Source: Ruminococcus sp. (GTDB lineage: Bacteria; Bacillota; Clostridia; Oscillospirales; Ruminococcaceae). Taken from it: a stretch of 64,000 nt of DNA. The position numbers and the translations under genes were made by a program. Below the pieces are notes generated by a model, which had not been told where the DNA came from, searched no databases, and worked only from the letters and a program-made list of their open reading frames with translations. Position 1 is the first letter of the stretch, and each line of letters starts with the position of its first letter. Below are positions 4,254 through 49,060 of the stretch, in pieces. Location of the stretch: contig JAFWTA010000011.1 in the NCBI GenBank assembly GCA_017519145.1, forward strand, positions 1 through 64,000, given 5' to 3'.

Positions 4254-4282
4254 ATTATAACATATTATTATAAAAAAGGCAA
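4254..4282 (-). promoter_or_regulatory. Sigma-A-type promoter of the desulfurase-thiI operon
   Basis: On the minus strand, -35 TTGCCT (4282-4277), 17-nt spacer, -10 TATAAT (4259-4254). The -35 box is formed by the edge of the dispersed repeat at 4278-4350. Confidence 0.75.
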
Positions 4283-4390
4283 GGGGCGCGGAGAAAAAGC
4301 TTCCGCTGCGTCATTTCTGCCGCGAAACAGCCGGCGGGGGCTCCCCGCTTATAGCATACTATAAAAATTGCAAGGGGCGCGGTGAAAAAT
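4278..4390 (-). repeat. Dispersed promoter-linked repeat, copy A, with partial second copy
   Basis: The full copy covers 4278-4350 and a partial one 4368-4390, both on the minus strand. Shared features with 44328-44401 and 48920-48993 are: the hairpin GCGGGGAGCCCCCGC, the word GGCTGTTTCGCGG, a variable centre of about 25 nt, then CGCGCCCCTTGCC whose end is the -35 box of a promoter. The partial copy carries CGCGCCCCTTGCAA followed by an AT spacer and TATAAG, like a decayed or too closely spaced promoter (14-nt spacer). Confidence 0.75.
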
Positions 4391-4428
4391 ATTCCGAGAA
4401 CAAAATCGAAAATATATTCTGTTTTTTG

Positions 4429-4457
4429 TTGCTTTTTTTCGGCTGTTATGTTATAAT
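4429..4457 (+). promoter_or_regulatory. Promoter of yfhO-like gene
   Basis: TTGCTT at 4429-4434, 17-nt spacer, TATAAT at 4452-4457; 36 nt upstream of the TTG start. It diverges from the minus-strand promoter at 4254-4282, with copy A of the dispersed repeat between them. Confidence 0.75.
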
Positions 4458-4493
4458 CAATATGTATATCTATTTTTTACGGAGGAAGGAACC

Positions 4494-7025
4494 TTGAAGA
4501 GAAGTGTCGCCGCCAAGGGCTGTACAAAAGAAAAATATCTGCTGGCTTTCCTGCTGGGCTTCGGCACAATGCTGTTCACCGTACTGCCCATGATGCTCAC
4601 CGAGCGCGGCTATTTCATATACTACGGCGATTACAACGCTCAGCAGATTCCCTTTTACAGCCTCGCCAATGACGCGGCAAGAAGCGGCGGACTCGGCTGG
4701 AACTGGTTCACGGATCTGGGCTCGGACTTCCTTACCTCATATTCATTCTACCTCAGCGGCAGCCCCTTTTTCTGGCTGACCGTCCTGCTCCCGAGGGGAC
4801 TGGTGCTGTATGCCATGCCCGTTATCCTCGCACTGAAGCACGGCATCGCCACACTGACCGCATATGCCTATATCAGGCGTTTCGTCCGCGGCAAGAACGC
4901 CGCTGTAACAGGAGCTCTCCTCTACGCTTTTTCGGGCTTTCAGGTATACAACCTCTTTTTCAACCACTTTCAGGACGTCACAGCTCTGTTCCCTCTCATG
5001 CTTATTGCCATGGAGGAGAATATCAACTGCCGCCGCAGAGGCGTTTTTGCACTGACCGTGGCACTCTGCGCCTGCGTGAACTACTACTTCTTCGCAGGTC
5101 AGGCTGTGTTCCTGATCCTTTACTACCTTTTCCGAATGAGGTGCAGGGACTTCCACACCTCATGGAAAAAATTCTTCGGGCTGGTCTTTGAAGCCGTTAT
5201 CGGCTCCCTTATGGCAGCATTTATACTGCTGCCGTCGGCTATGGCTCTCATGGGCAATTACAGGATAAGTGAGAGGCTCTACGGCGCGGATATGACCGCT
5301 TACACCGACAAGACACTCCTGCCCCGTCTGGTGCAGACCCTGTTCATGCCTGCGGATCCCCCTGCCTACCCGAATCTGTTCAGCTCGGAGTACGAAAAAT
5401 GGGCGTCCATCGGCGCGTACCTGCCCCTTTTCTCAATGGCAGGAGTCATCTCATTCGTACACCTTCGCAGGAAGCACTGGGCTTCAAAGCTGCTTTTCTG
5501 CTGCGGAGTCTTCGCAGTGATCCCCATACTCAACAGCCTGTTTCAGGCGGTAAACTCCTACTACTACGCGCGGTGGTTCTATATGCCCATACTGATCATG
5601 GCAATGATGACCGCACACAGCCTCGACGACGAGGATAACAGCGGCTTTACGGGACTGAAGGTCTGCACCGCCATGACAGCTGCCTTTGCGGTCATCGGCT
5701 GCTTCCCTGCCAAGCCCAAGGACGGCGAGAAGGCAAAGCTGTTCACCATGCCGGAGGATGTGCTCTACTTCTGGATAACCGTAGGTGTTACGGTATTGTT
5801 CCTTGTCTGCGCCCTCCTTATCTTCCGCAGAAAGAAAAAGGGCAGACTCAGCACCATATTCGTGGTGTTCGTCACAGCGGTCTCCTCTATAATCTGCGTG
5901 TTCACCACCACTCTCTATGCCGCAAACAGCGTTTCCTCCGCCCGCGATTACATTGACACTGCCATCGACGGCGAGGACGAGGTATGGGAGCCCGTCAGCG
6001 ATAACAACTTCTTCAGGATAGATATCTCCGCAGACTGCGATAACTACCCCATGATCTGGGGGCTCCCCACCATGAGAGCCTTCCAGAGCGTGGTAAATAC
6101 ATCCATCATGGACTTTTACAGCTATGTGGGAGTACCGAGAGATGTGGCTTCCAGAGCTAAGCTCAGCCACTATACTCTCCGCGGTCTTTTCTCCGTAAAA
6201 TATTACTACAAGGAGAAAAAGGAGGGCTTCTCCTATGAGGAGCTCCTACGCTCCATCCCCGAAAGCTCCTCGTCATCATCTTCTAATTCTGCGGACGAGA
6301 ATACAGATATCGCCATTATCCCCGATGAACTCCCCGATTTCAGATACGTCGGTGAGACCGAGCATTTCGAGATATACGAGAATGAGCTGTATGTGCCCAT
6401 GGGCTTTGCATATAATACCTATATCACCAAAAAGGCTGCCGATGACAAGGGCAAGCTTCAGCGCGAGAAGGTAATGATGAAGTCCCTGATACTCACCGAC
6501 GAGCAGGCTGAGAAGTACAGCGATATCATCAGGGAGTACGATCCCGAGAGAGATACTTCCATGTCGCGGGAGTCATACAGGATGTTCTGCCGCGAAAAGA
6601 TAGCCTGCTCCGCAAAGAGCTTCGTATATGACTCCCACGGCTTCACTTCGGAGATAGACCTTGATGCGCCCAAGCTGGTATTCTTCAGCGTGCCGTACAG
6701 CAGCGGCTGGACCGCCGAGGTAAACGGCTCCCCTGCCGATGTGGAAAAGGTCAACGAGGGCTTTATGGCTGTCAGAGCCGAAAAGGGCAGCAACACTATT
6801 GTTTTCAGATACAGAACGCCTTACCTCAGGGAGGGCGTTATCATAAGCTGCATAAGCACAGCAGTGCTGGCGGTCTATGTACTCATATTCCGCAGAAAGC
6901 GCAGCAAGGGAGACTACGCCGACCACAGGCACTTCTACGATTACAGCTCCTGCGAAAAAATAAAGGCAGCGCAGGAATACTGCGACAGCCTGTTCAATAC
7001 CAAAGCAGCCAAGGAGGAAAAATAA
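4494..7025 (+). CDS. YfhO family polytopic membrane protein
   Basis: 843 residues, starting at TTG (4494) 8 nt after a strong GGAGG; no in-frame ATG has a better site. About a dozen hydrophobic helices fill residues 15-460, then a large outside segment with a Ser run (ESSSSSSSNS) and a C-terminal beta domain with FFSVPYSSGWTAEVNG, followed by a last helix and a basic tail. The SSGW..VNG signature is typical of YfhO proteins. In Bacillus subtilis YfhO is implicated in lipoteichoic acid glycosylation as a GT-C-type membrane glycosyltransferase; substrate here is unknown. Its stop overlaps the next start (TAATG). A paralogue lies at 35142-37796. Confidence 0.88.
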   Translation: MKRSVAAKGCTKEKYLLAFLLGFGTMLFTVLPMMLTERGYFIYYGDYNAQQIPFYSLANDAARSGGLGWNWFTDLGSDFLTSYSFYLSGSPFFWLTVLLPRGLVLYAMPVILALKHGIATLTAYAYIRRFVRGKNAAVTGALLYAFSGFQVYNLFFNHFQDVTALFPLMLIAMEENINCRRRGVFALTVALCACVNYYFFAGQAVFLILYYLFRMRCRDFHTSWKKFFGLVFEAVIGSLMAAFILLPSAMALMGNYRISERLYGADMTAYTDKTLLPRLVQTLFMPADPPAYPNLFSSEYEKWASIGAYLPLFSMAGVISFVHLRRKHWASKLLFCCGVFAVIPILNSLFQAVNSYYYARWFYMPILIMAMMTAHSLDDEDNSGFTGLKVCTAMTAAFAVIGCFPAKPKDGEKAKLFTMPEDVLYFWITVGVTVLFLVCALLIFRRKKKGRLSTIFVVFVTAVSSIICVFTTTLYAANSVSSARDYIDTAIDGEDEVWEPVSDNNFFRIDISADCDNYPMIWGLPTMRAFQSVVNTSIMDFYSYVGVPRDVASRAKLSHYTLRGLFSVKYYYKEKKEGFSYEELLRSIPESSSSSSSNSADENTDIAIIPDELPDFRYVGETEHFEIYENELYVPMGFAYNTYITKKAADDKGKLQREKVMMKSLILTDEQAEKYSDIIREYDPERDTSMSRESYRMFCREKIACSAKSFVYDSHGFTSEIDLDAPKLVFFSVPYSSGWTAEVNGSPADVEKVNEGFMAVRAEKGSNTIVFRYRTPYLREGVIISCISTAVLAVYVLIFRRKRSKGDYADHRHFYDYSSCEKIKAAQEYCDSLFNTKAAKEEK

Positions 7026-7561
7026 TGCATCTTCAGGAAAAAACTCTCACCAGCGATGTCAAGTATGAGGGAGTCATCTTCACCATAACCCACGACACTG
7101 CCGAGCTTGAAAACGGCAAGACCGCTCCACGCGACGTTCTCCATCACAACGGCGGAGTCTGCGTGATACCCGTTACGGAGAACAATGAGATATTCCTCGT
7201 TAAGCAGTTCCGCTATCCCTTTCAGACGGTGACGAGAGAGGTCCCCGCAGGCAAGCTTGAAAAGGGCGAGGACCATGCAGAATGCGGACGCCGCGAGCTC
7301 CTTGAGGAGACAGGCTGCACCTGCTCTGAATACATCTACCTCGGGGAGATGCTCCCCACCCCTGCCTACAACAGCGAGATAACATATATGTACCTCGCAA
7401 AGGGACTTACCTTTACCGCACAGAGTCTCGACCCCGACGAGTTCCTCGATGTTGAGCGCATACCGCTCTCAGAGGCTGTTGCACAGGTCATGGACGGCAC
7501 TATCCGCGACGGCAAGACCCAGATAGCAATACTCAAGGCGGCAAGAATGCTGGGTATATAA
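7025..7561 (+). CDS. NUDIX hydrolase, ADP-ribose pyrophosphatase type
   Basis: 178 residues. The NUDIX box is complete: G76, five residues, E82, seven residues, R90-E-L-L-E-E-T-G97. The arrangement VFLVKQFRYPF..T.EVPAGKLEKGE is that of the NudF-like ADP-ribose pyrophosphatases, which split ADP-ribose to AMP and ribose 5-phosphate in the cytoplasm. The start ATG overlaps the stop of the YfhO gene by one base, so translation is coupled; a functional link to YfhO is not evident. A terminator follows at 7565-7591. Confidence 0.9.
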   Translation: MHLQEKTLTSDVKYEGVIFTITHDTAELENGKTAPRDVLHHNGGVCVIPVTENNEIFLVKQFRYPFQTVTREVPAGKLEKGEDHAECGRRELLEETGCTCSEYIYLGEMLPTPAYNSEITYMYLAKGLTFTAQSLDPDEFLDVERIPLSEAVAQVMDGTIRDGKTQIAILKAARMLGI

Positions 7562-7564
7562 CAA

Positions 7565-7591
7565 AAAGACCCACCTAACAGGCAGGTCTTT
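7565..7591. terminator. Bidirectional terminator between NUDIX gene and spoVG
   Basis: AAAGACC pairs with GGTCTTT around an inner CCT/AGG helix. Convergent genes end on either side, so it can serve both. Confidence 0.65.
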
Positions 7592-7606
7592 ATGTAAGAT
7601 CACTGA

Positions 7607-7915
7607 TCAAAGCTCGTCAGCTTCTTCGTTTGCTTCCTCGGAAGCCTCTGTCTCCATGATCGCAAGCTGTCTCTCATATGCATCAAGGATGTTCTCCTCA
7701 AAGAGCTTTCTTGCTGAAGGTGAGATAGGATGAACGATATCGCGGAAGACGCCATTCTCATCCTTGCGGCTGGGCATTGCAACGAACAGTCTTTCATCGC
7801 CCTGAACGACCTTGATATCATGTACGGCAAACATATCGTCGATAGTTACCGAAACTACCGCTCTGAGTCGTCCGTCAGACATGATCTTCCTGATCTTCAC
7901 ATCTGTAATTTCCAT
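7607..7915 (-). CDS. spoVG: SpoVG family RNA/DNA-binding regulator
   Basis: 102 residues, typical SpoVG length. The conserved core is intact: MEITDVKIRKI at the start, RAVVSVTIDDMFAVHDIK, then FVAMPSRKDENG and DIVHPI. SpoVG proteins bind nucleic acid and act as pleiotropic regulators, first noted in Bacillus stage V sporulation but present in non-sporing Firmicutes too. The C-terminus is a short acidic tail (EASEEANEEADEL). AGGAGG lies 8 nt before the ATG. It is monocistronic: its promoter is at 8014-8042 and a terminator follows. Confidence 0.95.
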   Translation of the reverse strand: MEITDVKIRKIMSDGRLRAVVSVTIDDMFAVHDIKVVQGDERLFVAMPSRKDENGVFRDIVHPISPSARKLFEENILDAYERQLAIMETEASEEANEEADEL

Positions 7916-8300
7916 AATTTTTCCTCCTTATATGTGGTGTGACTCCTTGGTTATACGCTGAAAAATTATTTCTTTTTCTCAACCGTTTTCAGCAGAAAGT
8001 AAACCTGTAAACTATTATACAGCATATTTTGTAAAAATGCAAGCTATTTTTTCGTTGGTTTAAGGAAAAATTATAATTATTTCGTTTTAAAGCGGTGAAA
8101 GAACGGTGAAAACAACGTGATAGAGCCAAATAATTACTCATCGGTGTCATATTAATTTACATTAAATCTTAATTATTTAATTTTTTACGCTATAAAAGTA
8201 CAGTTTTTTCACTCGAAAGTCCTGTCCGCACAGCAGCGGACTGCTTATATACGCCTCTCATATCGGGGCTATTCTATTCATTCAAAGAAAGGTGATCATT
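7916..8300. other. Intergenic region between spoVG and murC
   Basis: 385 bp, AT-rich, between divergent genes. It holds the spoVG promoter (8014-8042). On the plus strand I find no convincing consensus pair for murC: TATAAT at 8072 has TTGGTT only 11 nt away, and TATAAA at 8191 lacks a good -35. A small stem GTCCGC/GCGGAC (8224-8241) sits in the probable murC leader. No ORF or riboswitch was recognised. Confidence 0.5.
8014..8042 (-). promoter_or_regulatory. Promoter of spoVG
   Basis: Minus strand: TTGCAT (8042-8037), 17-nt spacer, TATAAT (8019-8014), about 100 nt upstream of the ATG. Confidence 0.75.
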
Positions 8301-9716
8301 TTGGATATCAACATCTTAAAAGGAAAAAAGCACATTCACTTCATCGGTATCGGCGGCTCGGGTATGTACCCCCTCGCACAGATACTCCACTCTCAGGGCT
8401 ATTACCTGACAGGCTCGGACAATAACGAGACAGAGACTCTCGACGCCGTAAGAAAAATGGGTATCCCCGTTTTCGTAGGGCAGCGCGCCGAGAACATCGA
8501 GGGCGCAGACCTTATCGTCCACACCGCTGCTATCATGGCTGACAACCCCGAGCTCATGGCGGCAAGAGCCAGCGGAGTTCCCGTACTTGAACGTGCTGAC
8601 CTTCTCGGTATCGTCACAAGCTGGTACGACAACGCTATCTGCGTTTCGGGAACTCACGGCAAGACCTCCACTACCTCTATGATCACTCAGATACTCTATA
8701 CCGCAGGAGTTGATCTCTCCGCATATATCGGCGGAAAGCTTCCCTGCATCGGCGGAAGCGGCATCGCAGGCAAAAGCGATATCATGGTATGCGAGTCCTG
8801 CGAATTCGAGGACCACTTTCTCAAGTTCTTCCCCGATATATCCGTTATACTCAACATCGACGCCGACCATCTGGACTACTTCGGCACTCTCGAGAACATC
8901 ATCAAGTCCTTCCGCAAGTTCAACGAGAACACCACAAAGTGCATAATCATCAACGGCTCAGACGAGAACTCCATGAAGTCTCTGGAGGGTATCAGCGGCA
9001 AGGAGATAATCACCTTCGGCAGGGACAGCTCCTGTGACTACTATCCCGAAAACGTAAAGCACGAGAACGGTCTCCTCACCACCTATGACGCCATGTATAA
9101 GGGCGAAAAGCTGGGAACAGTAACTCTCCATGTGGCAGGTATCCACAATGTGCTCAACTCACTGGCGGCAGTTGCCGCTGCACGATATGTGGGCGTTGAC
9201 TTCCAGTTCATACAGAAGGGGCTGGAGGAGTTCCGCGGAGCCAAGCGCCGCTTCGAGAAGCTGGGCTTTGAGAAGGGCATAACCGTTGTGGACGACTACG
9301 CTCACCACCCCACAGAGCTTGAGGCTACCCTCAATGCTGCTATGGAGATGAACTTTAACCATGTATGGGCAGTTTTCCAGCCATTCACCTTCTCCCGTAC
9401 AAAGCTCCTGCTGGACGACTTCGCAAGAGTATTGCAGATACCCGACCATGCTGTCCTCACCGATATCATGGGAAGCCGCGAGAAGAACACCTACGGTATC
9501 TTCACACGACACCTTGCGGAAAAGATACCGGACTGCATATGGTTCCCGCAGGACGAGTCAGCCGAATGGACTGACGAGAGAAAATACGCAAACTTTGAGC
9601 AGATATGCGACTATGTCTGCGAACACGCTCAGGAGGGAGACCTTGTCATAACTCTTGGCTGCGGAGACGCCTACAAGATCGCTAAAATGATACTGAAAAA
9701 GCTTTCGGAGGAATAA
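8301..9716 (+). CDS. murC: UDP-N-acetylmuramate--L-alanine ligase MurC
   Basis: 471 residues. MurC adds L-alanine to UDP-MurNAc, the first amino acid of the peptidoglycan stem, in the cytoplasm using ATP. The Rossmann start HFIGIGGSGM is at residues 13-22, the ATP-binding GTHGKTST at about 117-124, and VDDYAHHPTE is in the C-terminal domain. I prefer the TTG at 8301 (LDINILKGKKHIHF): AAAGGTGATC, a near-perfect anti-16S match, ends 3 nt before it, whereas the GTG at 8292 lies inside that ribosome site. lexA follows after 3 nt. Confidence 0.95.
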   Translation: MDINILKGKKHIHFIGIGGSGMYPLAQILHSQGYYLTGSDNNETETLDAVRKMGIPVFVGQRAENIEGADLIVHTAAIMADNPELMAARASGVPVLERADLLGIVTSWYDNAICVSGTHGKTSTTSMITQILYTAGVDLSAYIGGKLPCIGGSGIAGKSDIMVCESCEFEDHFLKFFPDISVILNIDADHLDYFGTLENIIKSFRKFNENTTKCIIINGSDENSMKSLEGISGKEIITFGRDSSCDYYPENVKHENGLLTTYDAMYKGEKLGTVTLHVAGIHNVLNSLAAVAAARYVGVDFQFIQKGLEEFRGAKRRFEKLGFEKGITVVDDYAHHPTELEATLNAAMEMNFNHVWAVFQPFTFSRTKLLLDDFARVLQIPDHAVLTDIMGSREKNTYGIFTRHLAEKIPDCIWFPQDESAEWTDERKYANFEQICDYVCEHAQEGDLVITLGCGDAYKIAKMILKKLSEE

Positions 9717-9719
9717 GCT

Positions 9720-10301
9720 ATGCTGAAGGATAAGGAAATCGCTGTTTTCAACTATATAAAGGCTCGACTCAGCGACGGAATGTCGCCGTCGGTAAGGGAG
9801 ATAATGGACGCTATGGGCTTCAAGTCCACGTCCACTGCCCATCGCTACATAGAGACCCTGGTCCGTGAGGGACTTATCGAAAAGACAGGAAATCTCAACC
9901 GCACCCTGCGCCTGCCCAACAGCGGCACCACTTCCGTGCCCGTTATGGGTACTGTTACCGCAGGTCAGCCTATCACTGCCGTTGAGGACATCACAGGCTA
10001 CATCGGCTTTGAAGCTCCCGGTGTTGACCCTCAGGAGCTGTTTGCACTGAAAATACGCGGCGAGAGCATGATAGACGCAGGTATCCTCGACGGTGATATT
10101 GTCATCGTCCAGCGCGTAAACTACGCTGAAAACGGCGATATTGTCGTTGCCTTCATCGACCGTGAGGAGGCTACCGTAAAGCGCTTCTTCAAGGAGAGAG
10201 GACACTACCGTCTCCAGCCCGAAAATCCCACCATGGAGCCTATCATCGTGGACGAAGTGGAGGTCCTCGGCAAGGTCATAGGCTTAAAACGGTACTATTG
10301 A
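9720..10301 (+). CDS. lexA: LexA SOS repressor
   Basis: 193 residues. The N-terminal winged helix (residues 1-65, GMSPSVREIMDAMGFKSTST) is followed by the autoproteolysis site Ala81-Gly82 in GTVTAGQP and the S24 peptidase domain with the catalytic pair Ser116 (RGESMIDAG) and Lys154 (ATVKRFF). RecA-stimulated self-cleavage therefore looks intact. Unusually it lies 3 nt after murC and has no promoter of its own in the gap, so transcription is probably tied to murC. I saw no GAAC-N4-GTTC SOS box directly upstream. The stop is followed by a cluster of hairpins. Confidence 0.95.
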   Translation: MLKDKEIAVFNYIKARLSDGMSPSVREIMDAMGFKSTSTAHRYIETLVREGLIEKTGNLNRTLRLPNSGTTSVPVMGTVTAGQPITAVEDITGYIGFEAPGVDPQELFALKIRGESMIDAGILDGDIVIVQRVNYAENGDIVVAFIDREEATVKRFFKERGHYRLQPENPTMEPIIVDEVEVLGKVIGLKRYY

Positions 10302-10307
10302 GCAGTT

Positions 10308-10345
10308 AGCTTGCAGGGGACGGCGCCAGCGACGTCCCGCAAGCT
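10308..10345. terminator. Long hairpin downstream of lexA
   Basis: AGCTTGC pairs with GCAAGCT and an inner GGGACG with CGTCCC. There is no U-tract, so it may be a repeat-derived stem or an mRNA 3'-end stabiliser instead of a classical terminator. Confidence 0.5.
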
Positions 10346-10380
10346 GATAAACATTGCTGAGATAAATCGGAATTTATATG

Positions 10381-10457: not shown

Positions 10458-10485
10458 TTATGCTAATGGCTATGGGCTAACGGCT

Positions 10486-25824: not shown

Positions 25825-26214
25825 TCAATTGCTGTTTTCGCCGTCTCCTGCAAGCTTTCTGTAATGTGCCTTCAGAAGTGCGAAAGTCTCATCGGAAATA
25901 TCATGCTCTACCTTGCAGGCGTCCTCAGCGGCAACGTCGCGGTTAACACCGAGAAGAATAAAGAAATCGGTGAGCACAGTATGGCGGTCATAGATGTGTT
26001 CTGCAACGCTTCTGCCTGCGTCCGTAAGGCGGATGTGATTGTCGCCGTCAACGGTAACAAGTCCCTCGTCCTTCATCTTCTTGAGGATTATGGAAACTGT
26101 GGGGCGTGAATATCCGAGATATGAACAGATATCTATTGCGTGAACGTCGGGCTGCTTCTGGGAGAGTATGAGTATTGTCTCCAGATAATTTTCAACTGCT
26201 TCAGTAATAGCCAT
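25825..26214 (-). CDS. DtxR/MntR family metal-dependent regulator
   Basis: 129 residues from ATG 26214 (GGAGAATC upstream). A winged helix occupies residues 1-65 (AIDICSYLGYSRPTVSIILKKM), followed by the dimer and metal-binding helix with DRHTVLTDFF and AAEDACKVEHDISDE, where Cys, Glu and His of the CxxEH motif are metal ligands. No SH3-like third domain is present, as in MntR. Such proteins sense Mn2+ or Fe2+. It lies 22 nt upstream of the MurL-like gene and shares its transcript, an unusual pairing. Confidence 0.9.
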   Translation of the reverse strand: MAITEAVENYLETILILSQKQPDVHAIDICSYLGYSRPTVSIILKKMKDEGLVTVDGDNHIRLTDAGRSVAEHIYDRHTVLTDFFILLGVNRDVAAEDACKVEHDISDETFALLKAHYRKLAGDGENSN

Positions 26215-26270
26215 TCTGATTCTCCTTTGCAATATAATGATTGCCAATTGTTTTAATGGTATACAAATAC

Positions 26271-26299
26271 ATTATAGCATATTATTATAAAAATAGCAA
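26271..26299 (-). promoter_or_regulatory. Promoter of DtxR-murL-murD operon
   Basis: Minus strand: TTGCTA (26299-26294), 17-nt spacer, TATAAT (26276-26271). The sequence around the -35 belongs to the repeat family discussed at 26294-26345. Confidence 0.75.
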
Positions 26300-26345
26300 C
26301 AGCCGCGGCAAAAAAACTCTGTTTTGCTTATGTAAAACGCGAAAA
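26294..26345 (-). repeat. Promoter-linked repeat, subfamily 2, copy D
   Basis: Minus strand: CATAAGCAAAAC, T-rich centre, CCGCGGCTGTTGCTA, then the spacer. The same words occur in the outer copy at 48994-49058 (CATAAGCAAAACGG ... CGCAGTTGTTGCTATTTTTAT). It lies between the pglX-like stop and the DtxR promoter. Confidence 0.6.
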
Positions 26346-26385
26346 CGGAGGTCTTCTCTTTATTCTTATGACATAGAAAGATAAT

Positions 26386-28999: not shown

Positions 29000-30523
29000 T
29001 CAGAGTGAAGCCAGCTTTGCGAACTGTGCCTTCAGTGCAGGGTAGATCTCCCTGTAAAGCTGATAGTATTTCTCATACTCGGGAACATTCTTCTCGTCGG
29101 GAGCCTGAACCTTGTCGGTCTTGATGATAGCTCCGCAAGCCTCAGTAACACTGCTGTAGATGCCTGCGCCAACGCTTGCAAGGATAGCCACGCCCAGTGC
29201 GGGACCTTCCTTGGAAGCCACTGTCTTTACGCTGCAGTTGTAAAGATCAGCAAGCATACTTCTCCAGAGGGGGGATGAACCGCCGCCGCCGCAAGCCATC
29301 ATGTCGCTTACGTTTACGTTCATCTCGCGGAATACCTCTACGCAGTCGCGGAGTGAATATGTTACACCCTCAAGAACAGCGCGGAGCATATCCTTTCTGG
29401 TGTGAATAGCAGAAAGTCCGAAGAATACTCCTCTTGCATCGGGATCAAGGTGAGGGGTTCTCTCGCCCATGAGGTAGGGCAGATAGAGAAGTCTGTTAGC
29501 GCCTACGGGAACAGTCTCAGCCTGCTTGTCCATAAGGTAGTATTCGTCAACGCCCATGAGCTTTGCAGTCTCCTTCTCGGTCATGCAGAAGTTGTCTCTG
29601 AACCACTTCAGTGAAAGACCTGCACCCTGTGTAACGCCCATAACGTGCCATGCATTGGGAACAGCAGCACAGCAGGTGTGGACTCTGCCCTGCTTGTCGA
29701 TGGATATATCAGAGGTATGAGCAAATACAACGCCCGAAGTACCGATAGTTGTAAATGCCTTGCCGTCCTCAACAACGCCTGTGCCGACAGCAGCTGCCGC
29801 ATTGTCGCCTGCACCGCCAACAACGATGGTGCCCTCGCAGAGACCGATCGTCTCAGCCATTTTCTTTGTGAGCTTTCCTGTTACCTCACAGCTCTCGTAT
29901 ACCTTGCCCAGCCAGTTCTTGTCGATCTCGAAAGCGCTGAGGAGCTCGTCGGACCACTTACGGTTGGGAACATCGAGAAGCTGCATACCGGAAGCGTCTG
30001 ATACCTCGGTAGCGTACTCGCCTGTGAGGATAAATCTCAGATAGTCCTTGGGAAGAAGGATATGGGCTACCTTTGAGTAGATCTCGGGCTCATTGTTCTT
30101 TACCCAGAGTATCTTTGCAGCTGTCCAGCCTGTAAGGGCAGGATTGGCTGTGATATCAACAAGCTTTTCTCTGCCGACGATGCGGTTCATCTCCTCCACC
30201 TCGGCAGCTGTTCTCTGGTCGCACCAGATTATAGACTTGCGGAGAACATTGTTGTCCTTGTCCAGCATAACGAGACCATGCATCTGTCCCGAGATACCGA
30301 TACCCTTTACGTCCTCCTTCTTAACACCGCTCTTAGCCATAACAGCCTTTACGGTCTCGATCATTGCGTTTGCCCAGTCCGCAGGATCCTGCTCCGCATA
30401 GCCGTTCTTAGGCTGATACATGGGATATTCGATAGTCTTTGAAGCGATAACGCTTCCCTTCTCGTCAAAAAGGACTGTTTTTGTACCGCTGGTACCGCAG
30501 TCCACACCAATTACATATGCCAT
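29000..30523 (-). CDS. xylB: Xylulokinase
   Basis: 507 residues, FGGY carbohydrate kinase. Phosphorylates D-xylulose for entry to the pentose phosphate pathway. N-terminal ATPase motif GVDCGTSGTKTVLFD, QMHGLVMLD, WCDQRT, and in the second domain IGTSGVVFAH and MACGGGGSSPLW are seen. The MHGLV and WCDQRT words are characteristic of xylulokinases within FGGY. No xylose isomerase is in the window. GGAG lies upstream of the ATG. Confidence 0.92.
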   Translation of the reverse strand: MAYVIGVDCGTSGTKTVLFDEKGSVIASKTIEYPMYQPKNGYAEQDPADWANAMIETVKAVMAKSGVKKEDVKGIGISGQMHGLVMLDKDNNVLRKSIIWCDQRTAAEVEEMNRIVGREKLVDITANPALTGWTAAKILWVKNNEPEIYSKVAHILLPKDYLRFILTGEYATEVSDASGMQLLDVPNRKWSDELLSAFEIDKNWLGKVYESCEVTGKLTKKMAETIGLCEGTIVVGGAGDNAAAAVGTGVVEDGKAFTTIGTSGVVFAHTSDISIDKQGRVHTCCAAVPNAWHVMGVTQGAGLSLKWFRDNFCMTEKETAKLMGVDEYYLMDKQAETVPVGANRLLYLPYLMGERTPHLDPDARGVFFGLSAIHTRKDMLRAVLEGVTYSLRDCVEVFREMNVNVSDMMACGGGGSSPLWRSMLADLYNCSVKTVASKEGPALGVAILASVGAGIYSSVTEACGAIIKTDKVQAPDEKNVPEYEKYYQLYREIYPALKAQFAKLASL

Positions 30524-43180: not shown

Positions 43181-43247
43181 AATTGATCCTTTCATTTTTA
43201 CGATGATAAGGACCGACGGGTGCTGCCGCGGTCCTGATATCCGTAAT

Positions 43248-44255
43248 TTATTCGTTAACCTCTTCCACAGGCTCCTCCTGCTGAACGGGCAGCTCCTCAG
43301 CCATAGCCTCAAAGCGTTCCTCATTCCAGCGGTCCAGCCACGAGAACAGGGTCTTTGCAATATCCTTATACACGTTGACGGAGTTCTTCTCCATGAGCAC
43401 ATCATGTCTCATACCGTCAAACAGACGGTGGGATATACTCTCATAGCCCAGCTTTTCCAGCTTCTTCATGGAGCCCATGAACTTTCTCTCCGATATCATG
43501 GCGGAGTCGTCCCTGCCCGAGATAAAGCGTATGGGCAGTGAGGGATTGGCAACATTCCAGCCGCGTCCCGACTCGGACTGCTTCACCAGCCAGAGCAGCT
43601 CCTGATAGGCATTGAGAGTGGGCTTGAAGTTGCAAAGGGGATCCTCGTTGTACGCAAGGACTGCGTCGGGATCGCTGCATCTCCATGAATTTATGGGATC
43701 CTCAAAGAACTTGCCGAAGCTGTCGTCGATAGTATCGAATATCTTCTCGCTCCTGAAACGGCTTCCGGGGCGCTTTGAAGCTACCGATCCTATGATACGG
43801 GCAGGCTGAGAAAATGCGCTGTGGCAGATAGTACCCAGAAGAACTATACCGTTTATTTCAGCGTCGTGCTCCTTCATGAAGCATCTTGCAGCTGCGGCTC
43901 CCATGCCGCTTGCGGCGATAAATACGGGAACATCCGGATAGGCAGCCTTCACCTTGCGGTTGAGCTGAGCAATATCGCTGATAAGTCCCTCTCCGCCTCT
44001 TCTGAACATAAAGCCGATGTCATCGGGCTCAACGATACTTTTTCCGTGTCCTCTGTTGTCGCTTATGACCGTAATGAAGCCCTGCTCCGCAAGGTAGTCC
44101 ATAAACGGGTAATAGCGCTCCTTGTGCTCATTCATGCCGTGGATCACCTGAACAATGCCGTTTATATCTCCCGAGGGCACCGCCAGTACAGCTGAGACAA
44201 CAAGCTCGTCATAATCGGAAGTAAATACAAATTCCTTCAGATCAGCATTAAGCAT
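43248..44255 (-). CDS. Alpha/beta hydrolase fold protein lacking the nucleophile serine
   Basis: 335 residues resembling monoacylglycerol lipase/lysophospholipase-type hydrolases: VQVIHGMNEHKERY, SDNRGHGKS, FISGRDDSAM (acid) and LFDGMRHDVLME (His). At the nucleophile elbow, where the family has GHSMG, this protein has ASGMG (residues 115-119), so the serine is replaced by Gly117 and the preceding position by Ser116. It may be catalytically dead or have shifted chemistry. The C-terminus is acidic (VQQEEPVEEVNE). Promoter with -35 in the dispersed repeat B. Confidence 0.85.
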   Translation of the reverse strand: MLNADLKEFVFTSDYDELVVSAVLAVPSGDINGIVQVIHGMNEHKERYYPFMDYLAEQGFITVISDNRGHGKSIVEPDDIGFMFRRGGEGLISDIAQLNRKVKAAYPDVPVFIAASGMGAAAARCFMKEHDAEINGIVLLGTICHSAFSQPARIIGSVASKRPGSRFRSEKIFDTIDDSFGKFFEDPINSWRCSDPDAVLAYNEDPLCNFKPTLNAYQELLWLVKQSESGRGWNVANPSLPIRFISGRDDSAMISERKFMGSMKKLEKLGYESISHRLFDGMRHDVLMEKNSVNVYKDIAKTLFSWLDRWNEERFEAMAEELPVQQEEPVEEVNE

Positions 44256-44303
44256 AAAGATCCTCCTGTCAAAAATCGGGGAAAAATAAAGTGTATACAG
44301 TTA

Positions 44304-44332
44304 ATTATAACATAATTATTTTAAAAAGGCAA
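44304..44332 (-). promoter_or_regulatory. Promoter of alpha/beta hydrolase-tex genes
   Basis: Minus strand: TTGCCT (44332-44327), 17-nt spacer, TATAAT (44309-44304). Same layout as at 4254-4282. Confidence 0.75.
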
Positions 44333-44401
44333 GGGGCGCGGCGTTAAAGTTCCGTTTCTGCCGCACTTCACCGCGAAACAGCCAGCGGGGGCTCCCCGCT
44401 T
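44328..44401 (-). repeat. Dispersed promoter-linked repeat, copy B
   Basis: Same family as 4278-4350: hairpin GCGGGGAGCCCCCGC, then GGCTGTTTCGCGG, variable centre, CGCGCCCCTTGCC at the -35. The first 34 nt (44401-44368) also encode the last ten residues and stop of the upstream YjbR/EVE gene. Confidence 0.8.
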
Positions 44402-45153
44402 CTGCAAAGCTCCCTGAGCCTGCACGAAAGAGTGTTGGGGACACCTCTTGCTCCTCTTACTGCCGACACTCCCAGCTCCCTCATCTCCGAGAGAGGCATA
44501 TCCTCACGGGTAAGCCTGTGGGTAAGTCTCAGCTTCATAGCCTTTTTTATACGGTAGCTGCCGTCATCGTAGTTGTAGGGGATATTGACCTCCTCAGCCA
44601 CGCACCTGTACATTATGGCAGAAATAGGAGCTGCCATATAGATATAGACCGTGTCCCCCACTATCACATCCGAGGTCTGCTTCCAGATTATAGCACCGTC
44701 CCGTCGGAAGTCCTGCTCAACATCGTACATGGCAGGTGCAGCAGGGATTAGCCATTCCTTGGGCTCGGTGCGGAGCCTTTTGCCGCTGCCGCTCTGTGAG
44801 GCAAGCTCATAGCTCATGTCCAGCAGTCCAAACAGCTGCTCCTCATCCACTGTGCCGTCAAGGAGCACCGACACCCACTGCTCCTTCTGCATATGGTATG
44901 CAGGCAGTATGCCCTTCATAGCAAGGAGAGAGCCTGTCATCAGGGGGCTGCACTTCACGTTGACTATTTCGTACTTAACGCCCTTTTCCAGCCCGAGACT
45001 TTTCCCGTCAACTCCCATGGAAATGGCGTACCACTTCTTGTTGGCAGCGCAGCGGAACACTGCAAAATCAGGGTATCTTTTCCACAGATACTCGGGCTCT
45101 GTGCCGTAACGCTCACGGGCATATACGAACAGTTTTTCTCTCAGCCCGCCCAT
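44368..45153 (-). CDS. MmcQ/YjbR-like protein with EVE-like C-terminal domain
   Basis: 261 residues. The N-terminal half (FVYARERYGTEPEYLW, YPDFAVFRCAANKKWYA) matches the MmcQ/YjbR fold with an insertion; the second half (IIWKQTSDVIVGDTVYIYM, APISAIMYRC) looks like an EVE/PUA-type domain that may bind modified bases or nucleic acid. Function is unknown. The C-terminus SGEPPLAVSR is encoded by the dispersed repeat B, so the native end was probably replaced. It starts 1 nt after the exonuclease stop. Confidence 0.82.
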   Translation of the reverse strand: MGGLREKLFVYARERYGTEPEYLWKRYPDFAVFRCAANKKWYAISMGVDGKSLGLEKGVKYEIVNVKCSPLMTGSLLAMKGILPAYHMQKEQWVSVLLDGTVDEEQLFGLLDMSYELASQSGSGKRLRTEPKEWLIPAAPAMYDVEQDFRRDGAIIWKQTSDVIVGDTVYIYMAAPISAIMYRCVAEEVNIPYNYDDGSYRIKKAMKLRLTHRLTREDMPLSEMRELGVSAVRGARGVPNTLSCRLRELCRSGEPPLAVSR

Positions 45154-45154
45154 G

Positions 45155-45727
45155 TCAGTCAGTCTCCTCAGTCATTTTCTTCAGCTCGTCCCTGAGACAG
45201 AGATAGCAGGCATTGCATATCTCGCAGTCCTTTTCCGCTCGGTGAGCGCCCTCTATCTCGATGCCGTAATGAGCAGCCACAGTGGTCTGTCTCCTGTTGG
45301 GCAGCATAGGCAGAGCCTTCCGTGAAAATCTCAGAACGTCCACAAAATCATTGGTGAGATATATCCCGTGGCATCGCAGAAGATTGTCGTAGAGGAAGTT
45401 TATATCGAAATTCACATTGTATCCCATGAGCATATCGCTTCCTGCGAACTCATAAAAATCCATTATAGCCGAGGTTATATCGGGAGCATCCTTTACCATG
45501 TCGTTGGTGATACCCGTAAGTTCGGTAATAAACGGGGAGATACTGTTATGAGGCTTTATTAGTGTGGTGAATACCGCTGCTTTTCTGCCCTTCCTGTATC
45601 GTACAGCCGCTATCTCGATTATCTCGCACTCCTCGGGAGCAAGTCCCGTGGTCTCTATATCCACTACGCAGTAATCCTCGGGGAAAGCCATCCTGCTTTT
45701 TCCCTTGCGGCGTTTAGTCTCGCTCAC
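45155..45727 (-). CDS. DnaQ-like 3'-5' exonuclease (DEDDh)
   Basis: 190 residues. Exo I motif VVDIETTG, Exo II NVNFDINFLYDN and Exo III HRAEKDCEI (His-x4-Asp) give a complete DEDDh set, as in DNA polymerase III epsilon subunits and related nucleases. It is stand-alone, not fused to a polymerase, so it may act in repair or RNA/DNA trimming. GGAG precedes the ATG. It heads an operon with the YjbR/EVE gene. Confidence 0.9.
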   Translation of the reverse strand: MSETKRRKGKSRMAFPEDYCVVDIETTGLAPEECEIIEIAAVRYRKGRKAAVFTTLIKPHNSISPFITELTGITNDMVKDAPDITSAIMDFYEFAGSDMLMGYNVNFDINFLYDNLLRCHGIYLTNDFVDVLRFSRKALPMLPNRRQTTVAAHYGIEIEGAHRAEKDCEICNACYLCLRDELKKMTEETD

Positions 45728-45763
45728 ATCAATGCTCCTTCCCTTTTCGCATTATACCCTACA

Positions 45764-45792
45764 ATTATAATATATAGCGGAGCAATTGTCAA
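45764..45792 (-). promoter_or_regulatory. Consensus promoter of exonuclease operon
   Basis: Minus strand: TTGACA (45792-45787), 17-nt spacer, TATAAT (45769-45764). Confidence 0.85.
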
Positions 45793-45946
45793 ATCAGCAG
45801 TTGTTCTCCTCTGTTTTACTGTAATGATAATAAATATTTCACATTATTTATCAAAAATACTTGATTATTACCGTAAAGAGTGCTATCATTATAATGGACA
45901 ATATTATACACCCACCAACCACTTCTTACAGAAAGGGGTAATAATC

Positions 45947-47485
45947 ATGAAGAAACTTTTAGCACTTACCGCAGCACTCTCCGTCGCAGCAGGAGCAGCT
46001 TCCCTGCCTGCATCCGCTGCATATGAGCACATTCCTCAGAGCAGGATATGGGATGAGGAAATAGAAATGTTCGATGCCTTTGACAAGGGCGAGATACCTA
46101 CCGATGTCAACGGCGACGGCACTTTCGATCTCATCGACTGCCTTATCTATTGGGCATATACCAACAGACTTGACTACAACGAAGAATACAAGGATACACT
46201 TGAAGCGCTGGGTGACCTTACCGGTGACGGCATGGAGAATTGGGATGACGCAGAACATCTCATCAGATACTACATCACTACTCACCATATGTCATTAAAG
46301 GACTTCGATCCTGATACCTATGCTGACTATGAGCAGATATATGAGGTCACACATACAGGCTTCTTATGCCATACGCCCTCTGTAACTACCCATTCTCTGG
46401 TAGAAGGTTTTATCGGACAGCTCAAGATGGACTGTGACTATCTTATGGCAGGTTATGATGTCTACTGCGAGTATGTGGACAACGGCACTCTTGATCCCGA
46501 CCTTAACGCCGACGGAAACTGCGATCTGACCGATCTTACATATTTCTGGGCATATTCCCTCAACAGAGAAGTATTTACCGTTGATCCTGCGGACGACTCT
46601 ATCAGCGAGAACATGGATAAGGATATTTTCGCCCGCGCCAAGGCTCTTTATGATGATCTGCCGGATAACGCTCCCTGCGGAGACTGGAGATTCAACTTCA
46701 CTAATATGTACTATTACGAGCACGGCAATGTTTCCAAGGATATGATAACAGACGAGTTCTTTGAAAGCGTTCTGGAGGGCGCCTCCAAGCTGGAGCTCAC
46801 TCGATTTGTCAAGGAGGATTACTTCAGTTTCGTTCCTCAGAATGATCCGTACATCGACTACGACGCCAAGATGTTCGACAGAGAGTACAATGCCTTTGTG
46901 GACGCGGTACATAACGGCGAAAAGCCTCTCCCCGACACCAATGACGACGGTATACTTAATTCTCTCGACTCATTCAACACATATATCTTCAAGTGCGAGC
47001 AGAGATCAGGAGTCACCGATGAGCAGTCCATACTCCCCAAGGATGTGCGCAATACGTTCATAAATGATATGGATGTTAACGACAACGGTCTCAGCGGAGA
47101 TATGAACGACCTCGAAGTCATCGACCTTTTCATCTCCATAGAAGATAAGACCGAAGAGGAAGTTGATGAGGTCTGCAATAATTATATGGCTCGTCTCAAT
47201 GAGTATGCCGCTCAGCTCGCCTCATTAAAGAGTCTGCCGCCCGTTAAGTTCAGTCCTGAAGGCAAGATGTCAAGTATGACAGACGATGACCGCACAGGCG
47301 ATGCCAACAGCGACGGCAATACCGATCTTGCAGATGCTATACTCATCATGCAGTCACTTGCAAATCCCGATAAGTATCAGCTCTCTGCACTCGGCAGGTT
47401 CAAGGGTGATGTTTACGAAGCAGGCGGCGGTATCACCGCAAACGACGCCCTCGCCATCCAGAACAGTCTCCTTAAAATCCAATGA
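45947..47485 (+). CDS. Secreted protein with several EF-hand-like modules and a C-terminal dockerin
   Basis: 512 residues from ATG 45947 (AAAGGGG upstream). A signal peptide ends near ASAAYE. Three related segments each carry a Ca-loop: DVNGDGTFDLID near residue 53, DLNADGNCDLTD near 185 and DTNDDGILNSLD near 330, the first two followed by YWAYTNR/FWAYSLNR; two of the modules also have a second loop (DLTGDGMENWDDA, DVNDNGLSGDMND). The C-terminus is a dockerin (GDANSDGNTDLADA ... ILIMQSLANPDKY ... NDALAIQNSLL), of the type that docks on cohesins in cellulosomes. No catalytic or carbohydrate-binding module is recognised. A terminator follows. Confidence 0.85.
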   Translation: MKKLLALTAALSVAAGAASLPASAAYEHIPQSRIWDEEIEMFDAFDKGEIPTDVNGDGTFDLIDCLIYWAYTNRLDYNEEYKDTLEALGDLTGDGMENWDDAEHLIRYYITTHHMSLKDFDPDTYADYEQIYEVTHTGFLCHTPSVTTHSLVEGFIGQLKMDCDYLMAGYDVYCEYVDNGTLDPDLNADGNCDLTDLTYFWAYSLNREVFTVDPADDSISENMDKDIFARAKALYDDLPDNAPCGDWRFNFTNMYYYEHGNVSKDMITDEFFESVLEGASKLELTRFVKEDYFSFVPQNDPYIDYDAKMFDREYNAFVDAVHNGEKPLPDTNDDGILNSLDSFNTYIFKCEQRSGVTDEQSILPKDVRNTFINDMDVNDNGLSGDMNDLEVIDLFISIEDKTEEEVDEVCNNYMARLNEYAAQLASLKSLPPVKFSPEGKMSSMTDDDRTGDANSDGNTDLADAILIMQSLANPDKYQLSALGRFKGDVYEAGGGITANDALAIQNSLLKIQ

Positions 47486-47489
47486 TATA

Positions 47490-47518
47490 AAAGCCCGTCT
47501 GTAAAGGCGGGCTTTTTT
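47490..47518 (+). terminator. Terminator after dockerin gene
   Basis: AAAGCCCG, loop, CGGGCTTT, then TTT. Confidence 0.85.
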
Positions 47519-47557
47519 GACATTCCGGCATGGCAGCGCTCCCCCCTCTACTGACGT

Positions 47558-47590
47558 AAATCAAAATTTAGCTTTGCTAAATTTTGATTT
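47558..47590. repeat. Perfect 15-bp hairpin with TTT loop, locus 2
   Basis: AAATCAAAATTTAGC, TTT, exact complement. Same element as 10486-10520 with compensatory changes in the stem. The gap 47486-47813 between dockerin and galE genes holds only repeats and terminators. Confidence 0.85.
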
Positions 47591-47625
47591 GAGTTTAGAG
47601 TTTAGAGTTTAGAGTTGAAAGTTGT
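47591..47625. repeat. Heptamer repeat tract, forward arm
   Basis: GAGTTTA three times, GAGTTGA, AAGTTGT. It is the complement-type of the tract at 47678-47710, so the two can pair as a large inverted repeat around a GTCGCC/GGCGAC stem (47629-47644). Confidence 0.8.
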
Positions 47626-47677
47626 GGAGTCGCCTACGGCGACAATATTTAAATATTGTGAGCGAAGCGAACACATT

Positions 47678-47710
47678 AACTCTCAACTCTCAACTTTCAA
47701 CTATCAACTT
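47678..47710. repeat. Heptamer repeat tract, reverse arm
   Basis: AACTCTC, AACTCTC, AACTTTC, AACTATC, AACTT, the same unit order as at 10542-10574. Confidence 0.8.
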
Positions 47711-47764
47711 AGCGCATACGCGCTAAATTCCGATTTAGCTTTGCAATCGTATAAAATACAATGT

Positions 47765-47789
47765 CCCGAAGCATTTTATGAGCTTCGGG
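47765..47789 (-). terminator. Terminator after galE
   Basis: CCCGAAGC pairs with GCTTCGGG across a 9-nt loop. The T-rich stretch follows only after ACATTG, so it is a moderate candidate. Confidence 0.6.
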
Positions 47790-47813
47790 GCTTGTTTTCA
47801 TGTATACCTGATA

Positions 47814-48836
47814 TCAGTTTTTATTGTATCCGTCAGGGTTATTCTTCTGCCAGTTCCACGAGTCGCGGCACATATCCTCCAGTGTCTTCTCGGTCTTCCA
47901 GCCAAGTACCTTCAGCGCCTTGTCTGCATTTGCATAGCACTCCGCAAGGTCTCCCGGACGTCTTGCACCGTAAACGTGGTTCACCTTGATGCCGTTGACG
48001 CGCTCAAATGTGTCTACTATCTCGGTAACGCTGTAGGGCTTGCCTGTACCGAGATTGAATATCTCAACTCCGTTGTGTTCAAGGATATAGTCAATAGCCT
48101 TGACATGACCCTTTGCAAGGTCTACAACGTGTATGTAATCCCTTGTGCAGGTACCGTCGGGTGTGGGATAATCGCTGCCAAAGATGGTCAGGCATTCTCT
48201 CTTGCCCACTGCTACCTGTGACACATAGGGCATAAGGTTGTTGGGGATGCCCTGAGGGTCCTCGCCTATCATGCCTGACTCGTGTGCGCCGATGGGGTTG
48301 AAGTATCTCAGCAATATCACAGACAGCTCCTTATCGGCATTTGCGGCGTCCTCGAATATCTGCTCCATCATTGCCTTTGTCCAGCCGTACGGATTTGTGC
48401 AGACTCCGCGCTTCATCTCCTCGGTATAGGGAACGGGGTTCTCCTCGCCGTAGACCGTTGCGCTTGACGAGAAGATGATGTTCTTAACGCCGAAACGGCT
48501 CATATTCTCAAGAAGCGAAAGTGTGGTGTCGATATTGTTCCTGTAATACATAAGAGGCTTTGCCACGGATTCGCCAACTGCCTTGAGTCCTGCAAAATGT
48601 ATGACCGCGTCAATGCTGTTCTCGCTGAAGACCTCCGCCAGCTTCTCTGTATCCTTGATATCCATTTCGTAAAGCTTTACGGTCTTTCCTGTTATCTTTT
48701 CGACTCTGCGTATCGCCTCGGGAGAGCTGTTTGCGAAATTGTCCGCAACAACTACATCATAGCCTGCCCCGAGAAGTTCAACTGCTGTATGTGAGCCAAT
48801 ATATCCTGCTCCTCCTGCAAGTAGTATCGTAGCCAT
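47814..48836 (-). CDS. galE: UDP-glucose 4-epimerase
   Basis: 340 residues. NAD-binding start LLAGGAGYIGSHTAVEL, HFAGLKAVGES, SSSATVYGEENPVPY, the catalytic YGWTK with Ser and Tyr-x3-Lys, and the C-terminal RRPGDLAECYANADKA are typical of GalE, which interconverts UDP-glucose and UDP-galactose. It lies downstream of rfbC but behind a terminator and with its own promoter, so it can be expressed apart from the polysaccharide locus. Confidence 0.93.
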   Translation of the reverse strand: MATILLAGGAGYIGSHTAVELLGAGYDVVVADNFANSSPEAIRRVEKITGKTVKLYEMDIKDTEKLAEVFSENSIDAVIHFAGLKAVGESVAKPLMYYRNNIDTTLSLLENMSRFGVKNIIFSSSATVYGEENPVPYTEEMKRGVCTNPYGWTKAMMEQIFEDAANADKELSVILLRYFNPIGAHESGMIGEDPQGIPNNLMPYVSQVAVGKRECLTIFGSDYPTPDGTCTRDYIHVVDLAKGHVKAIDYILEHNGVEIFNLGTGKPYSVTEIVDTFERVNGIKVNHVYGARRPGDLAECYANADKALKVLGWKTEKTLEDMCRDSWNWQKNNPDGYNKN

Positions 48837-48895
48837 TTTCTTAGTCCTTTCATATGTATTATCCGCATTTATTGCGGAAAGATGCTATTTTTATA

Positions 48896-48924
48896 ATTAT
48901 ATCACAGAAATACGAAAATAGCAA
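48896..48924 (-). promoter_or_regulatory. Promoter of galE
   Basis: Minus strand: TTGCTA (48924-48919), 17-nt spacer, TATAAT (48901-48896). Same layout as at 4254-4282 and 44304-44332. Confidence 0.75.
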
Positions 48925-49060
48925 GGTGCGCGGAGAAAAACTACCGGTTTTGATATTTATTCCGCGAAACAGCCTGCGGGGGGCTCCCCGCTTATATCAT
49001 ATGATCATAAAAATAGCAACAACTGCGAAGAAAAAGTTCCGTTTTGCTTATGAAAAAGCA
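48919..49060 (-). repeat. Dispersed promoter-linked repeat, copy C, in tandem with a subfamily-2 copy
   Basis: The inner copy 48920-48993 has GCGGGGAGCCCCCCGC, GGCTGTTTCGCGG, variable centre and CGCGCACCTTGCTA. Upstream of it (minus strand) a second unit 48994-49058 has CATAAGCAAAACGG, CGCAGTTGTTGCTA, 17-nt spacer and TATAAG, so a second promoter-like pair is retained. Confidence 0.75.

Follow-up and report, generated by a model that had tools for sequence, protein, structure and literature searches.

In the 64,000-nt window of Ruminococcus DNA that was analysed, three genes of the minus strand, encoding a cysteine desulfurase-type protein (the nifS locus; 3084-4214), an alpha/beta hydrolase (43248-44255) and a galE-type epimerase (47814-48836), are each preceded by a copy of the same GC-rich repeat. 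An earlier note on this DNA had named these genes, had placed the three copies upstream of them on the minus strand, and had described a TTGCCT, TTGCCT or TTGCTA exactly 17 nt from a TATAAT. The window sequence bears out the positions and strand of the copies, as well as the spacing in 3 of 3 cases, and the gene names agree with Pfam (Aminotran_5 of the cysteine desulfurase type, Hydrolase_4, and GDP_Man_Dehyd/Epimerase of the GalE type, respectively). Each copy consists of a GC-rich box followed by a 3' arm. The boxes, given with their scores under a box-only model (R2), lie at 4287-4348 for copy 1 (GCGGGG-AGC-CCCCGC, TTTCGCGG, centre, CCGCG; E = 9.5e-13), at 44337-44399 for copy 2 (E = 2.3e-13) and at 48929-48991 for copy 3 (E = 2.6e-13), and the corresponding arms, likewise on the minus strand, occupy 4254-4286 (-35 TTGCCT, 4282-4277; -10 TATAAT, 4259-4254), 44304-44336 (TTGCCT, 44332-44327; TATAAT, 44309-44304) and 48896-48928 (TTGCTA, 48924-48919; TATAAT, 48901-48896). 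The repeat had been taken for the -35 end of these promoters; it does include the -35, but continues past it through the -10.

The window contains the motif GGCTGTTTCGCGG exactly three times. Upstream of copy 1 stands a promoter-like half-unit (CCGCGCCCCTTGC...TATAA; 4349-4396, minus strand; E = 3.5e-6 under R1, a model of the unit with its promoter), whose TATAA touches the box, with a spacer of only 14 nt as counted by hand and no TTG at 16-18 nt. Copy 3 is in tandem with a degenerate upstream unit (48992-49083, minus strand; R1 E = 4.9e-10), ending in TTGCTA-17-TATAA and also touching the box. A fourth, degenerate copy with TTGCTA-17-TATAAT (26271-26350, minus strand, R1 E = 1.6e-11; R2 box 26304-26353, E = 7e-4) precedes an ORF at 25825-26247 of the minus strand, the product of which presumably resembles a metal-dependent regulator of the DtxR/MntR type. 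At copy 2, an upstream YjbR-type ORF (44368-45153) extends into the box and has its stop inside it, so that the unit provides the last codons of this ORF.

Alignment of the copies defines a unit of about 95 bp, made of a box of 62-63 nt and an arm of 32-33 nt. The box starts with GCGG(G/C)GAGC(C/G)(C/G)CCGC, a 6-bp hairpin with a 3-nt loop, and continues with TTTCGCGG, a variable centre and CCGCG, while the arm runs from four bases through TTGC to a terminal TATGnTATAAT, with ACACA or ACATA as alternative ends to TATGnTATAA. Among the 51 boxes of the genome (see below), that TATAA end was found for 35, and in 24 of them it lies 94 or 95 nt from the box start. The promoter form of the arm, composed of TTGC, 17 nt and TGnTATAAT, has the -10 as the right edge of the unit and is predicted to be a complete sigma-A-type promoter. 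This Ruminococcus genome appears to carry dozens of copies of such a dispersed repeat, the tail of which resembles a complete promoter.

The genome searched (3.17 Mb in 65 contigs, 94% complete; labelled G000, with contigs C1 and so on) contains the 13-mer GGCTGTTTCGCGG 15 times, 7 forward and 8 reverse, and its backward-read control pattern 0 times. Model R1, a sequence-only model based on 29 units, gave 119 matches at E <= 1 and 86 at E < 0.01, the latter falling into 61 places. Because R1 itself includes the promoter, we built R2 on the box only, from 38 sequences (one with two mistyped bases), and obtained 51 boxes at E <= 0.01. According to a loose rule, which 1173 of 20000 random positions of these loci also satisfied, a -35/-10-like pair lies behind 41 of the 51 boxes, with C21:17275 and C21:17355 as weak cases; for 39 of these 41 the -35 begins 4 nt past the box, and for 39 the spacer is 17 nt. 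As to the ten boxes devoid of a promoter pair, five lie in one tandem array beside what by eye appears to be the end of dnaK, two directly behind tRNA genes (C1:38655 and C57:21565), two are of that same repeat kind (C1:38571 and C14:21783), and the last is C1:3012. At the 5' edge, a TATAA-type pentamer abuts the box in 22 of 51 cases, 17 of them with a TTG -35 at 16-18 nt, so that tandem promoters separated by a box are common; the last two nucleotides before the box are AA in 31 of 51 cases and CA in 5.

For the position of the repeat relative to genes, the 51 boxes were merged into 37 places, and a gene start was counted when an ORF of at least 120 aa with a ribosome-binding-like motif began within 300 nt. 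A gene start lay downstream at 32 of the 37 places and on the other side at 12, with 11 places having both, only one having the reverse side alone, and four having neither. The association with gene starts, in one orientation, that the earlier note had proposed survived this check. Since units are present on both contig strands of the genome, the shared minus strand of the window copies need not mean anything.

Other repeated sequences were seen near the units. On C6, downstream of the unit at 29831-29995 (minus strand), lies a second dispersed repeat, a 150-base piece of which has at least 13 matches in the relative G071 and at least 16 in the relative G069. Inverted sequences similar to one another (GATACGC...GCTCCCTGC...) follow three promoter places (C52:171-270, C27:52339-52387 and C46:2429-2509) and apparently represent another repeat family. 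Beside the apparent dnaK (by eye), a terminator-like hairpin (CTTTAGGGCGG...) contains tandem boxes both in G000 (C47:9669-10112) and in another species, G008 (C8:174649-174805), the box sequences of the two being different.

With strict filters, 22 of 35 relatives of the same genus had R1 matches at E <= 0.001 (at most 71, in G009), and 5 of 24 genomes from the same order had weak ones. Scanning GTDB contigs for an exact pattern yielded 73 stretches, of which 36 are titled R. flavefaciens; the titles of the others name other or uncultured Ruminococcus, MAGs of Clostridia, Clostridiales or Bacillota, and, in one record, Alistipes. The three window sites are thus members of a family of repeats found in Ruminococcus (R. 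flavefaciens group). The Alistipes record (L206, Alistipes sp. NALB_7813_19) has one exact pattern match and is perhaps a mislabelled bin. Carriage on phages, viruses or plasmids was rejected, as two patterns had no exact match in viral contigs and window positions 4250-4396 gave no match among plasmids and phages. At four loci of G009 (L184, L185, L186 and L192), boxes form arrays with a period of roughly 97-103 nt and an arm of neither the promoter nor the tRNA type (see below), and some of these arrays terminate in a normal promoter.

The relatives G071 and G069 have one promoter before nifS (ACCGCGCCCCTTGC...TATAATATAGGG), of the kind of the half-unit at 4349-4396, as against promoter-box-promoter in this genome. 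At the same gene, two boxes are present in G019 and one in G035, the hairpin being of another sequence (GCGCGG-AGC-CCGCGC), and only a remnant of the box centre is left in G073. The ancestral member of the nifS promoter pair was not derivable, the promoters having diverged too far. Before the hydrolase gene, G071 and G069 carry two units, the last of which differs in its centre from the single unit here, and the remaining relatives read carry none; before galE, no unit is present in G019, G071 or G069, the upstream neighbourhood being different in the latter two. A further 33 promoters were searched in G071 and G069 via joined gene starts, and 27 were compared with G071 in alignments. By HMM counts, the number of boxes differed at 17 of these 27 and agreed at 10, some of the agreeing ones involving copies that are weak or eroded. 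The clearest example is C51:44371, with a single promoter in G071 and one extra unit here, the promoter copies flanking the box being identical over 44 nt; C50:23596 has 3 boxes against 2 in G071, C21:24803 has 2 against 1, and the C54 and C24 arrays are permuted between the two genomes rather than simply longer or shorter. Remnants are kept in some relatives, not only at nifS in G073 but also in G071 at C6:39532 and C53:23737. Because each site was without an outgroup, loss in the relative is at any one of them as possible as gain here; the proposed reading is that gain, and not only loss, lies behind the differences.

A sister form of the unit, often with the hairpin GCGCC-GAGCG-GGCGC, begins directly behind tRNA genes in G008, G009, G000 and others. 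In the fetched loci, 13 first boxes behind tRNA genes were found, on ten kinds of tRNA and a few of them orthologous: 11 start at 0 nt from the annotated tRNA end, one at 1 nt and one at 3 nt, the last at a tRNA annotated without its CCA. Most of these loci were fetched for the boxes that they contain, and hence carry no information on the share of tRNA genes with boxes. Three tRNA-type stretches fold far better than their shuffles (z = -4.4, -6.5 and -3.7) and form a long stem with a U-rich stretch behind it, the shape of a terminator; as predicted from sequence, the box centre of the sister form holds a terminator-like stem, and the form is placed before the native terminator.

The tRNA-Gly-Arg-His cluster of G009 has a match at E <= 1e-20 in 67 of 80 genomes, and in G001, G011, G024, G067 and G081 the matches up to the CCA and beyond the unit abut, so that the 95 bp are absent there. 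Among 30 tRNA-His loci read, a box was detected by HMM in five and a degenerate one by eye in two, one lies at a contig edge, and 22 have none. In five of these 22 (L463, L464, L469, L470 and L475) the empty junction reads CCCCA/GAAGAATAGGCAC and contains no box part; the filled junction of G009 reads CCCCA/GCGCC...ACATA/GAAGAATAGGCAC, the terminator-like stem after GAAGAATAGGCAC being the same as in the empty sites. In G099, G094 and G073 the tRNA-His unit directly abuts GGCAC, and the empty site has lost about 8 nt there; the right border is therefore not one fixed event, and these cases are other events or later changes.

The pairing of the hairpin at the box start was assessed in 121 TATAA-anchored units, defined by their right part only and pooled from the fetched loci, orthologues included. 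Its positions pair in 95.2% of cells, against 82.7% with shuffled arms (0 of 2000 shuffles as high), and the 30 distinct hairpins pair in 82.8% against 71.9% (0 of 2000). In alignment A2, which leans toward the hairpin because the gathering pattern had fixed hairpin letters, 24 cells changed on both sides against a shuffle mean of 10.1 (0 of 500), and without the mistyped row hairpin 1 has 23 of 220 such cells against a mean of 8.5 (0 of 500). Two of five covariation measures on A2 fail to exceed the shuffles, namely the number of pairs with a change on both sides (2; 351 of 500) and that of further pair types (4; 134 of 500). All these controls ignore relatedness, and palindromes can stay perfect through self-correction; the data support, without proving, that the hairpin keeps pairing through changes and has a structural role.

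The CGCG/CGCG arms further along the box are nearly invariant, with no compensating changes, and are evidence neither way. RNAalifold on alignment A1 predicted only four pairs, all in these arms and with no compensating change. Folded as RNA, two of the window boxes are within the shuffle range (z = -0.74 and -0.77), and the third has z = -2.26, with 4 of 200 shuffles as good. Reading the repeat as an RNA element was rejected on the RNAalifold result, and because shuffled sequences fold as well as two of the three window boxes. Rfam gave no match at gathering score in the window, and at E <= 1 on 12 loci it returned five tRNAs, one T-box leader and two weak miRNA-model matches far below the cut-offs, with no family over the unit. 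The T-box leader (RF00230, 117 bits; L203 1767-1975, in G008) adjoins tRNA-Thr(GGT) and its units.

We compared 207 distinct contexts from the fetched loci, orthologues from several genomes included. Boxes of at least 90% identity without similarity of the flanks formed 190 pairs, and variable centres are common to unrelated loci. At least 90% identity over 95 nt was seen in 53 pairs after same-locus pairs had been dropped; in 49 of these 53 the similarity ends on the right 93-98 nt past the box start, that is, at the end of the -10 or of the arm, while on the left it stops at the edge of the box or at the preceding TATGnTATAA, or else reaches farther, through the preceding promoter (tandem neighbours included). 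One 95-bp unit is 100% identical at the unrelated G069 loci L358 and L359, and also at L011 of this genome.

Overall, we consider it quite probable that the units are non-coding, non-autonomous dispersed repeats that give a promoter on landing, the arrays of which change by recombination, and which have a sister form of tRNA/terminator type. Dispersal is supported by the 51 boxes, the orientation at 32 of 37 places, the fusion with a promoter in 41 of 51, the sites with and without a unit, and the identical 95-bp unit at unrelated loci. The anatomy of the unit, its right border and orientation, the presence or absence at given sites and the copying between loci are shown by the sequences, and the promoters are probably active. 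The earlier view of a mobile promoter cassette found partial support and was largely right about the dispersal of a promoter-bearing unit; boxes that lack a promoter exist as well (10 of 51), as do boxes behind tRNA genes and boxes in arrays. Most likely, the unit would be copied as box plus arm; on landing behind an existing -10 (TATAA/GCGG...TATAA/T) or at another A-ended site, it would confer on the gene a promoter, often a second one in tandem, and recombination between the repeated promoters could then lengthen or shorten the arrays. New sites such as tRNA 3' ends would need a process with site choice, and may be reached via an enzyme acting in trans on the hairpin; with Y1 as the family sought in G000-G035, no transposase, recombinase or autonomous partner came to light. 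No target duplication appears to be common to the sites, with at most 1-2 ambiguous nt at tRNA-His and 44 nt, representing the local promoter, at C51.

It is also conceivable, though rather unlikely, that no transposition is involved and that both the spread and the changes in number stem only from replication template switching, unequal crossing-over and ectopic gene conversion, which would start from short stretches in common (TATGnTATAA on one side and TTTTTCTCCGCG on the other). The identical promoter copies on both sides of the box at C51:44371 and the permuted C54 and C24 arrays of G000 and G071 argue for it, as do the several single promoters in which CCGCG-N4-TTGC, the unit's right edge, is already present, and the fact that G000, G008 and G009 have no match to a Y1 transposase. 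It fits poorly, however, with tRNA-type units whose start abuts the tRNA end in ten kinds of tRNA gene, with an empty tRNA-His site that holds no box part to seed recombination, and with identical units at unrelated loci. Improbable is a fixed regulatory architecture, in which the box would be the binding site of a regulator (an inverted CGCGG...CCGCG of near-constant spacing) and the places a regulon rather than a mobile element: a near-constant box length (60-64 nt across the 38 boxes of A2), a fixed distance from box to -35 and nearly invariant CGCG/CGCG arms without compensating changes would suit such a site, but the box number differs from G071 at 17 of 27 orthologous promoters, promoter-less boxes lie behind tRNA genes and in arrays, and unrelated loci have variable centres in common. 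An element derived from REP/RAYT or IS200/IS605 and moved by a Y1 (HUH) transposase is highly improbable. The hairpin at the left edge, the same short sequence at left flank and right end (TATAA/TATAA, CA/CA) and, at tRNA-His, an insertion 3' of the flank that left no long target duplication recall such elements. Y1 was rejected as the mover because PF01797, the only family sought in G000-G035, gave no match in the copy-rich G000 (94% complete), G008 and G009; 14 of 36 genus genomes have a match at E <= 0.001. Also against this reading, the hairpin lies at nt 0 of the unit and so leaves no room within it for a guide sequence 5' of the hairpin foot, and a TATAA-type sequence precedes the box (22 of 51) where most REPs, in the available part of PMC3733652, have GTAG or CGTC tags.

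Returning to dispersed, promoter-giving repeats as the preferred reading, we hold only tentatively, and with more doubt than belief, that they represent a hitherto undescribed kind of dispersal system in Ruminococcus, with a hairpin-led carrier, single-strand- or RNA-based movement, exact insertion at the borders of transcription units (tRNA 3' end, -10, stop codons) and interchangeable promoter or terminator cargo, the genome being rewired by standard parts. We know of no enzyme or process that would place such short repeats, with a terminator-like stem, exactly behind tRNA ends. If true, the preferred reading would clearly exemplify how promoters multiply in the form of repeat units before ordinary genes in a Gram-positive gut/rumen bacterium. 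The sharp right border, the tandem stacking and the frequent differences between near relatives would make promoter turnover countable, and both annotators of Ruminococcus genomes and modellers of expression would need to mask or model the units.

That promoters may be copied between unrelated genes is a known idea, that of putative mobile promoters or "promoter propagation"; compared with that idea in outline, rather than by sequence, the Ruminococcus case differs in that the borders of the unit, sites that have or lack it, and a sister form can be seen. In the literature, judged mostly by titles and the beginnings of abstracts, we found no such repeat in Ruminococcus, nor, judged mostly by listings, a unit that ends at its own -10, stacks in tandem and has a tRNA/terminator sister. 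Promoters are listed in several bacterial MITEs in the portion of a review at hand (PMC10969869), so that a promoter on a short repeat is already known. The suggestion that the repeat is MITE-like or REP-like holds loosely, in that it is short, non-coding, intergenic (one window copy overlapping the end of an upstream ORF) and present or absent between relatives, but G000, G008 and G009 lack a Y1 match, and the unit has no GTAG/CGTC tag, no terminal inverted repeats and apparently no fixed target duplication. Unlike the ends of a MITE, its start GCGG(G/C)GAGC is not complementary to its end, as read from the alignments. REP and REPIN sequences with RAYT, as presented in excerpts of PMC6006769, PMC3733652 and PMC3116915, are likewise palindromic, intergenic and present in many copies; the Ruminococcus unit is larger, carries a promoter, has no Y1 match in three copy-rich genomes, and shows no GTAG/GTGG (or CGTC) tag at the hairpin foot, the five nucleotides before the box being of TATAA type in 22 of 51. 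In IS200/IS605 a guide sequence lies 5' of a subterminal hairpin inside the element, which is absent here with the hairpin at nt 0; insertion 3' of a fixed short target without duplication, in IS200/IS605 style, would fit tRNA-His in G009, and the flank is mostly A-ended with no fixed tetranucleotide.

Among promoter-bearing repeats, BrickBuilt, a MITE of Porphyromonas gingivalis with 23-nt repeats, inverted-repeat ends and bidirectional promoter capability according to the accessible text of PMC4596501, is similarly a tandemly repeated intergenic element with promoter segments, and differs in that the Ruminococcus units measure 94-95 nt, point in one direction and have their right edge at the -10. 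BOX and RUP of Streptococcus pneumoniae have terminal inverted repeats and target duplications; BOX resembles our units in its modular build with a variable number of inner units, and SPRITE in being terminator-like, as is the tRNA type (PMC3049150, in the part available), whereas in Ruminococcus promoter and terminator-like cargo ride on one chassis, and placement at tRNA 3' ends is exact. The Correia element (CREE) of Neisseria, from the sections of PMC2649163 to hand, has inverted-repeat ends, a target duplication and strain-variable placement, often 5' of genes, and can generate a sigma-70 promoter, "Black" at the gene-side end, with a -10 only partly in the element, or "Snyder" at the far end, borrowing a native -35. 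Both are short, non-coding, dispersed and, in Ruminococcus probably, mobile repeats that differ in placement, often lie 5' of genes and bear promoters, the gene-side promoter being present in Ruminococcus as a sequence feature, at 41 of 51 boxes. The two were set apart by description rather than by alignment with the Correia inverted-repeat sequence, the one occurring in Ruminococcus and related MAGs, the other being described from Neisseria only; the Ruminococcus unit is further distinguished by the lack of terminal inverted repeats, by having the whole -35/-10 inside it, by its tandem arrays, and by its tRNA/terminator sister.
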